A stretch of DNA of 64,000 nucleotides. It comes from Pontibacter anaerobius. Lineage in GTDB: Bacteria > Bacteroidota > Bacteroidia > Cytophagales > Hymenobacteraceae. The stretch covers positions 1-64,000 of the forward strand of contig NZ_JAPFQO010000002.1 of the NCBI RefSeq assembly GCF_026241195.1, given 5' to 3'. Position 1 is the first letter of the stretch; every line of letters starts with the position of its first letter. Under the pieces are notes generated by a model that saw only the letters and a list, made by a program, of their open reading frames with translations, had not been told where the DNA came from and made no database searches. The position numbers were made by a program, and so were the translations under genes. Of this stretch, positions 1 to 1,359 are shown piece by piece.

Positions 1-112
1 TTCCTGCAAATCGCCTAATGATAAAGTAAGCGACTATTATACCTATGACAACTTGTAGGATGTTTATTATGAAATCCATCTGAGCTTCTAATTCATTGAT
101 TTTATTTGCCAC
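1..112 (-). CDS. Small membrane protein, N-terminal part (runs off the left edge)
   Basis: About 37 N-terminal residues can be read: a short polar helix (NKINELEAQ) then a hydrophobic segment (ILQVVIGIIVAYFII) ending in RR, a likely single membrane helix. The GTG at 112 is preceded directly by an in-frame TAG, so it is the first possible start; the ATG at 79 is the alternative. The DNA is AT-rich like the next small gene and unlike the rest of the window. The function is unknown. Confidence 0.45.
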   Translation of the reverse strand, partial: MANKINELEAQMDFIINILQVVIGIIVAYFIIRRFAG

Positions 113-125
113 CTAACGTGTTTGG

Positions 126-151
126 CTATGGTGCATTTAAATGCACTATAG
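126..151. repeat. 26-nt near-perfect palindrome between two small genes
   Basis: CTAT, a G/T pair, then GTGCAT TTAA ATGCAC and ATAG form a hairpin with one imperfect pair. It lies between two minus-strand small genes and is flanked by CCTAAC (112-117) and GTTGTAT (157-163). That arrangement recalls an attC-like recombination hairpin, but the second box departs from the GTTRRRY consensus at one position. It could equally be a bidirectional terminator. Confidence 0.4.
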
Positions 152-156
152 GCTTT

Positions 157-170
157 GTTGTATAAAGGCT
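157..170 (+). repeat. 14-bp terminal inverted repeat, left copy
   Basis: GTTGTATAAAGGCT here is matched in inverse orientation by AGCTTTTATACAAC at 570-583, with 13 of 14 positions identical. The two copies bracket the AT-rich small membrane-protein gene at 247-564. Confidence 0.5.
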
Positions 171-246
171 TTGTTTTCAGTTACTAACTCCACTTCTTTT
201 TGCTGTGTCAAGTTAACAACTTCTTCATAGTCCATTTTAGAAAGAT

Positions 247-564
247 TTACTTTGTGTCGGACCTGAATACTTCAACTTTTGATTCTTGAAAATCATTGTA
301 AATGTATACCCAATTATAAAGATCAACCTTCTCCTTTCTATTATCAACTATGTAGATTCTTCTTGAGTCTTTTTCAATGAGACCAAACTTTTTACTTTCA
401 TGGTTAATAATTATGTCCCCGTCCTTTGACTGATAGTAGAAGTGCTGTAGATCTCCATAATGATCTTCAATTTCCATGGTATGTAATGACAGGTATAGAA
501 AGCCGCTAAACAAGAATACCAAGCCTACAGATAATAAAACAACAATCTTAGTTCTCTTTTTCAT
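247..564 (-). CDS. Small membrane-anchored protein of unknown function
   Basis: 105 residues from the ATG at 564; the reading frame extends to a TTG at 582 that lies in the inverted repeat, so ATG is preferred. MKKRTK is followed by a hydrophobic segment (VVLLSVGLVFLFSGFLYL), giving one N-terminal membrane helix, then about 75 residues rich in charged and aromatic residues, probably extracytoplasmic. No family is recognised. The gene is AT-rich and enclosed by 14-bp inverted repeats at 157-170 and 570-583, which suggests a horizontally acquired unit. A coding-looking tail continues past its stop in the -1 frame (146-250). Confidence 0.6.
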   Translation of the reverse strand: MKKRTKIVVLLSVGLVFLFSGFLYLSLHTMEIEDHYGDLQHFYYQSKDGDIIINHESKKFGLIEKDSRRIYIVDNRKEKVDLYNWVYIYNDFQESKVEVFRSDTK

Positions 565-569
565 GCTTG

Positions 570-583
570 AGCTTTTATACAAC
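570..583 (-). repeat. 14-bp terminal inverted repeat, right copy
   Basis: AGCTTTTATACAAC is the inverse of the repeat at 157-170 (13/14). It lies directly upstream of the small membrane-protein gene and next to the hairpin at 592-636. Confidence 0.5.
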
Positions 584-591
584 GAAATGGT

Positions 592-636
592 CTAGCAGAC
601 GCTTTGGCTTGTCAGGCTTGCGAGGGTGTCTGCTAG
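592..636. repeat. Inverted repeat CTAGCAGAC / GTCTGCTAG
   Basis: A perfect 9-bp inverted repeat (592-600 with 628-636) with a 27-nt loop. It marks the boundary between the AT-rich small-gene unit and the GC-rich structured element that starts at about 642. Confidence 0.5.
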
Positions 637-641
637 GGTGT

Positions 642-1095
642 GTTGGGCGGGGTTGTTTTTCCCTTTTTCCCCCCGGCACTGCGTTGTAAAAACAAGGGAA
701 AAGCAACCCGGATGGTTGGGTTATTTTCTCCTTTTAAACTCCTTCTCGAGTGGCGCTTTAGCCGGCGGCAATGCCGTTAATGCAGTATTGGCGACGTTGC
801 CAGAGGCGTCAGGCTCCGGGCTGGCCCACCATCAAAAGAAAAACCAATCCTATCATTGGCCTCTCTATTGCCGGGCAACCCTCTGTAAAAGAGCCACCTG
901 CCGAAGTTATGCTCTTGACTTTGTCATTCCCGAGCTATAACTTCGCCCCTCAAAGTCTTGCCTGGACGCCCCCGTCCGAAAGCCAGCTTTCTCCCGGCTT
1001 CGCCGAGGCAAGACTTCCAGTCAGAAACGCCATTTCTTCCTTTGGCTCTTTTTCTGATCGTTGCCCCGCTTTAGTGGCCTTTGATGCCGCCCAGC
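642..1095 (+). other. Large multi-stem structured element (candidate structured RNA or folded DNA)
   Basis: No convincing gene occupies this stretch; the overlapping frames at 626-1100 have no family features. Instead it folds repeatedly. An outer stem 642-650/1087-1095 encloses: a 15-16-bp stem 650-665/694-709; hairpin 766-769/773-776 inside 767-771/797-801; 799-803/821-825; 844-848/855-859; 881-884/890-893; a long stem 902-910/937-945 continued by 911-914/932-935 and 916-919/923-926; a cloverleaf 953-1016; and 1021-1027/1051-1057 with 1029-1032/1043-1046. The two non-Watson-Crick pairs in the longest stems (656-703 and 643-1094) are T/G on the plus strand, so they would be U-G in a plus-strand RNA but A-C in a minus-strand one. 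That weakly favours a plus-strand transcript. I do not recognise a known RNA class. Confidence 0.5.
953..1016. other. Perfect four-way (cloverleaf) junction inside the structured element
   Basis: An 11-bp perfect stem (953-963/1006-1016) closes three hairpins that abut with almost no unpaired bases: 964-968/973-977 (loop CCCC), 978-982/987-991 (loop CCAG) and 995-998/1002-1005 (loop TTC). Only the three bases 992-994 are unpaired between arms. The outline is tRNA-like, but there is no 7-base anticodon loop, no T-loop GTTC motif and no CCA-type acceptor, so it is not a tRNA. On the minus strand the third arm contains GCGAAGC, a DNA mini-hairpin known to be unusually stable. Confidence 0.6.
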
Positions 1096-1164
1096 CCTAA
1101 AAAAGCCTGAAAGACACGCCACTTTAAAACCTGAAAATAATCCCAATCACGGCCAACTTCTGTG

Positions 1165-1185
1165 TAAACGTCACTGTGACGTTTA
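1165..1185. promoter_or_regulatory. 21-bp palindrome TAAACGTCA-N3-TGACGTTTA
   Basis: A perfect 9-bp inverted repeat (1165-1173/1177-1185) with a 3-nt centre, about 175 nt upstream of the DNA glycosylase gene and just after the structured element. No T-run follows, so an operator is more likely than a terminator. The bound protein is unknown. Confidence 0.35.
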
Positions 1186-1359
1186 TCTGCATTATGTGCG
1201 GAGTCCAAAATTCCTTTTCGCCTCCTAAAATAAGTATAAATTCATACTTTTCTATACTAGATGTATGAAGTTCTGCAAGGTTATACTTTCTGTTTGAAAA
1301 CCAAGTAAATAATAGCGCAAAGTATAACCGTAAGGTGTAGCATGAAGTAAAAGAGAAGT

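Follow-up and report, generated by a model that had tools for sequence, protein, structure and literature searches.

An ORF-less cassette with a conserved fold on an integron-like platform of Pontibacter anaerobius

The window analyzed here, 64,000 nucleotides long, makes up the start of contig C2 in the draft genome (4.65 Mb) of Pontibacter anaerobius. Read on the minus strand, its beginning runs from an attI-like site through a folded core and an attC-like site into the next cassette, and the stretch 583-1156, 574 bp in size, is almost certainly a mobile cassette without an ORF that belongs to an integron-like platform. An earlier note, made from the letters alone, had described a structured, gene-free element at 642-1095; these bounds turned out to enclose only the inner part of a unit that extends from 1156 down to 583. 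The features of the locus are as follows.

1157-1215, minus strand: attI-like primary site, GATAAACGTCACAGTGACGTTTACACAGAAG|TT, of which there are 15 in the genome
583-1156, minus strand: whole ORF-less cassette, starting TTGGCCGTGATTGGG (from 1156 downwards) and ending ...GACCATTTCG (583)
642-1156, minus strand: conserved folded core, 515 nt, about 20 helices (26 aligned homologues, covariation, DNA folding)
581-648, minus strand: attC-like site with R'' GCCCAAC (642-648), L'' CTAGCAGAC (628-636), L' GTCTGCTAG (592-600) and crossover G|TT at 583/582
111-582, minus strand: next cassette, with an ORF (247-582) and its own attC-like site at about 111-163, as read from the sequence and the ORF list

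The boundaries emerge from an alignment of the copies within this genome, which have the stretch (G)TTGGCCGTGATTGGG...GACCATTTCG in common and diverge on either side of it; beyond the cassette end, the sequence after the following TT is different in each copy. The start falls at the G|TT crossover of the attI-like site, a palindrome of about 50 bp, GATAAACGTCATAGTGACGTTTACACAGTAG|TT, that lies upstream of the element. Judged by the number of cassette starts, there are eight copies or more in the genome, and a search of the genome with 590-1210 returned three complete ones (contigs C2, C6 and C1) together with partial copies at contig ends. The next cassette shows the corresponding organization, in that an inverted repeat, 154-170/570-586, fits the expected R''/R' complementarity. 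Positions 1-119 of the window are themselves a repeat, identical over 119 bp to the end of contig C10 and probably belonging to a second repeated cassette, and contigs C3 and C4 have another 118 bp in common. No tRNA or tmRNA was found within the 64-kb window.

The 15 attI-like sites are dispersed over the contigs, and some are degenerate. Similarity among them ends at or near G|TT, where the cassette begins, and the same pattern of likeness up to G|TT followed by divergence recurs behind the element's end, so that G|TT is the crossover at which cassettes are joined. The element is the first cassette at 6 of the 15 sites, and no other first cassette is common to several of them. The attC sites, read by eye, are imperfect palindromes whose ends match the AAC...GTT core, though not every base of RYYYAAC/GTTRRRY; a simple attC scanner was dropped because it missed sites that had been read by eye. 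Each of the roughly 15 dispersed attI-like sites appears to head a short cassette array. The array on contig C1, for instance, opens with its attI-like site, after which come an ORF cassette, the element and a further ORF cassette, each with an attC, then an ORF pair that by eye resembles MazE and MazF, and finally chromosomal genes. Such a pair is seen at 11032-11591 of L041, as a cassette of two overlapping short ORFs that, by eye, have the look of a MazE/MazF toxin-antitoxin pair.

On contig C3 (633-684 and 774-2225), the gene of a tyrosine recombinase is directly followed by one of the attI-like sites. This gene, 483 codons long, matches PF00589 and is closest to IntI and Xer models. It scores 205.7 bits against TIGR02249, below the cut-off of 265, and does so in two pieces that leave model positions 180-241 unmatched; in a comparison with IntI4 (2a3v), a stretch of about 66 residues in IntI4 corresponds to one of only about 23 here. 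The feature that defines IntI is an additional domain, according to a passage in PMC9668308 that cites Messier and Roy 2001. As predicted from these comparisons, the recombinase is without the IntI-specific additional domain, and because that defining domain is missing we call the platform integron-like rather than an integron. Its N-terminal extension resembles a duplicated domain, both copies of which begin with LEHEGK. Of 200 family genomes, 82 contain relatives of the recombinase, and homologues are widespread in Bacteroidota; in Pontibacter relatives as well as in other Bacteroidota, a conserved palindromic site and a GTT follow shortly past the stop codon. Many flavobacterial recombinase loci (among them L154, L160, L170, L176, L178, L191, L195, L198, L200 and L208) are likewise arranged as gene, short palindrome, a few bases, GTT and ORF, much like a compact attI, and several flavobacterial contigs stop right at such a site, as would be expected at repeats.

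With its attI-like site beside a tyrosine recombinase gene, its G|TT-joined cassettes, its attC-like imperfect palindromes with AAC...GTT and its Pc-like promoter (see below), the platform is thus comparable to a sedentary chromosomal integron (IntI/attI/attC). It differs from one in the recombinase, which lacks the IntI domain, falls under the TIGR02249 cut-off, carries an N-terminal extension within its 483 residues and is oriented in the same direction as the cassettes. It also departs from the expectation of one attI per integron, since 15 dispersed attI-like sites stand against one recombinase of its kind found in the genome. Integrons have been reported to be rare in Bacteroidota; IntegronFinder 2.0 yielded a single complete one, in Salinibacter ruber, beyond Chlorobi and Ignavibacteriae (PMC9024848). 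Our literature search, which covered few subscription journals, found no paper describing either the platform or the element.

Matches to the element occur in 28 of 200 family genomes, its own included, and 26 of these 28 belong to the same genus; the longer matches have 69-88% identity. The earlier note had proposed searching related genomes with a covariance model, and an RNA model of the core's central domain found matches in 19 of 204 family genomes, while the 390 genomes sampled from the order gave no match beyond the genus. The core was unmatched in plasmid and phage collections. In several genomes the element begins about 145 bp past the recombinase gene, on the same strand, and among 27 family copies we read 13 as lying directly after an attI-like site and 14 as lying after another attC. 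Across these relatives, four or more unrelated attC stems are seen behind the same core, which is why we regard the core as the unit and the attC as the part that is exchanged.

That the core has a conserved fold is, in our judgment, likely. We aligned 26 full cores and carried an RNAalifold consensus over to the alignment (A3), which gave 164 pairs in 20 helices with 93.4% of cells paired. Since the structure was derived from the same sequences, the share of paired cells leans its way, and the counts of changes on both sides of a pair are firmer: such changes affect 50 of the 164 pairs, whereas shuffles give 22±2 and slid controls no more than 23, and they amount to 157 double-change cells compared with 47±6 in shuffles. 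The compensatory changes that had been named earlier as a check on the stems are thus present, yet under a stricter, phylogeny-aware null, in which substitutions are placed on the tree of 25 related sequences and power is low, one pair reaches E≤0.05 when all column pairs are considered. With a single significant pair, this analysis limits the structural claim and cannot carry the case alone. The principal helices, listed with the evidence for each, are the following.

643-1156, minus strand: terminal helix pairing the cassette start (1150-1156) with the R'' end (643-649); double changes GC:15 to AU:7 and GC:15 to UA:7
713-1149, minus strand: long-range helix 1133-1149 (TGATTGGGATTATTTTC) / 713-728 (GAAAATAACCCAACCA); 95% of cells paired across its 15 pairs, 5 of them changed on both sides
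873-1065, minus strand: long helix 1043-1065/873-896 around the central multibranch domain; 20 pairs, 10 of them changed on both sides
952-1017, minus strand: central multibranch domain with three hairpins (995-1005, 978-991 and 964-977); helices 13-16 of the helix list
900-947, minus strand: hairpin 936-947/900-911 with an inner GACAAAGTC hairpin; helices 17-18 of the helix list
761-807, minus strand: hairpin 787-807/761-781; 16 pairs, 6 of them changed on both sides, including UA:11 to CG:10
650-709, minus strand: 3' hairpin 696-709/650-663; 14 pairs, 6 of them changed on both sides, 85% of cells paired

The first two of these helices close the fold, which therefore reaches 1156. In the long-range helix, ATTTTC/GAAAAT is replaced by ATTTAC/GTAAAT in four homologues. 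The double changes of the terminal helix are also predicted by attC logic, because the first bases of the cassette are R' in its circular form. The outer stem that the earlier note had drawn between 642-650 and 1087-1095, by contrast, is not conserved, with 67% of cells paired over 25 homologues and several positions mostly unpaired. In homologue L132 (G131:C77) the central multibranch domain is cleanly absent as a unit, which suggests a modular fold.

Folding far exceeds chance on both strands: RNA folding over 642-1095 gives z-scores of -7.8 (plus) and -5.1 (minus), and with DNA parameters over 642-1156 the values are -8.9 (plus) and -7.7 (minus). A protein-coding reading is ruled out, as no reading frame is conserved in the 26 homologues, the longest ORFs lie at differing places and only 29 of the 306 indels have a length divisible by three. 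None of the Rfam 15 covariance models, including those for the group II intron, ROOL, GOLLD and OLE, matched at its gathering score, and the best relaxed matches were at chance level. Of what had been noted before, the folding into stems and the lack of a frame thus hold up, whereas the extent, the closing stem and the plus-strand reading do not.

The plus-strand reading had relied on T/G wobbles in the longest stems. Over the homologues, departures of the G.T and A.C type number 82:61 (strand-neutral pair set; sign test 35:32, p=0.4), and the sense strand of the cassette is the minus strand. RNase P of the order, passed through the same pipeline as a control, gave 195:51 (sign test 49:15, p=1e-5), and the two skews differ (Fisher p=8e-6 by cells, 0.006 by pairs), although the RNase P sequences are the more divergent ones (mean identity of 56% compared with 72%) and the extra mismatch types of the element dilute its skew. 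With these differences in mind, the near balance leans no more than tentatively towards DNA: it is unexpected for an RNA and counts against that reading, as does the poor conservation of unpaired columns, 15% of which are invariant compared with 42% of the paired ones. Because the element in this respect is unlike RNase P, a fold at the DNA level is possible.

What speaks for an RNA is found upstream. In 19 of 30 loci the recombinase stop codon is overlapped by a Pc-like promoter, TTG-N19/20-TATATTAG, which is absent from all 541 control windows and is directed through attI into the first cassette; going by the general consensus, we take this motif to be a promoter of the Bacteroidota type. 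Copies in first position beside the recombinase are likely to be transcribed in the cassette sense. It is mainly because this promoter reads into the first cassette that we rank an RNA product first. Our best reading, to which we would give about an even chance, is accordingly a mobile cassette for a large structured non-coding RNA, which would account for the multiple copies with identical boundaries, the attC swaps, the covarying fold, the missing coding capacity and the promoter. Judging from the junctions, the recombinase would excise the cassette as a circle at attC, and the circle could be reinserted at any of the roughly 15 attI-like sites; a copy landing first in an array would then be transcribed in the cassette sense from the Pc-like promoter upstream of attI, and the product would be the large structured RNA. 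The choice posed in the earlier note, between a large non-coding RNA and a DNA element acting while single-stranded, was a fair one, and the conserved covarying helices speak for a structured element, but the note missed the mobile, multi-copy cassette with a recombination site at each end.

The same observations can also be read at the level of DNA. If selection acted on the folded DNA itself, the whole cassette, as a single strand or a cruciform, would collapse into a branched rod with the attC hairpin at its end, R'' pairing with the cassette's 5' end; this could aid presentation of attC to the recombinase and hence mobility, and we regard this as a real, if tentative, possibility. Both strands fold with DNA parameters, a circular DNA fold closes the R''/R' stem, the attC hairpin and the core into one structure, G.T and A.C are nearly symmetric with stems conserved and loops not, and this is the sole cassette that recurs in first position at several attI sites. 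To our knowledge, however, no cassette has been described with a multibranch DNA fold of 500 nt, large structures would be expected to impede replication, R'' also pairs with the 5' end in the integrated state and would compete there with attC folding, and some G.T excess may persist once background mismatches are allowed for. A known feature of integrons remains on the side of DNA, namely that attC sites recombine as folded single strands or cruciforms (PMC8946536). Somewhat improbable, in our estimate, is a viroid-like form of DNA cassette that owes its mobility to the folding of its DNA, in which the circle, single-stranded or extruded, would fold into a branched rod ending in attC, with structure selected on both strands, and would spread through the roughly 15 attI-like sites by means of a recombinase other than a canonical IntI.

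The frequent first position would also suit a cassette that acts in cis at the head of the array, its core providing a stable 5' structure or a promoter for the cassettes behind it with no separate RNA function, and promoter-active ORF-less cassettes are indeed known in Treponema (PMC6557892). We consider this unlikely, given that about half of the copies are not first, that a promoter has no need of some 20 conserved helices and that no clear promoter was found within the core. Least probable of all, and in our view a poor prospect, is a non-functional, self-complementary parasite whose paired changes arise from templated repair of quasi-palindromes. Multiple copies and near strand symmetry would fit such a repeat, but paired changes also occur in long-range helices with arms 400-450 nt from each other, many species retain the core although their attC varies, and the paired columns show the invariance given above.

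For the RNA cassette that we favor, sRNA-Xcc1 provides a precedent of a regulatory RNA borne on a cassette (PMC6557892, PMC12444791). Like it and other ORF-less integron cassettes of Xanthomonas and Treponema, which yield a regulatory RNA or a promoter, the present element has no ORF and is moved by attC; unlike them, it has a conserved fold of about 515 nt, resides in Bacteroidota and is present in at least eight copies in its genome. Large RNAs of ornate structure (ROOL, GOLLD, OLE), some of which are tied to mobile DNA, offer a further parallel. The element resembles these (PMC12286853) in its length of several hundred nucleotides and its many helices, and differs from them in that it matches no Rfam family at the gathering or a relaxed threshold and in that its core is carried on an attC cassette.

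Taken together, a new large conserved structure is carried here as a cassette, which bears on the role that so big a structure plays on a mobile unit. The platform that carries it has a recombinase free of the IntI domain, with relatives in 82 of the 200 family genomes, and an attI-like architecture of similar kind recurs in flavobacteria; it bears in turn on whether cassette capture requires the IntI-specific domain.
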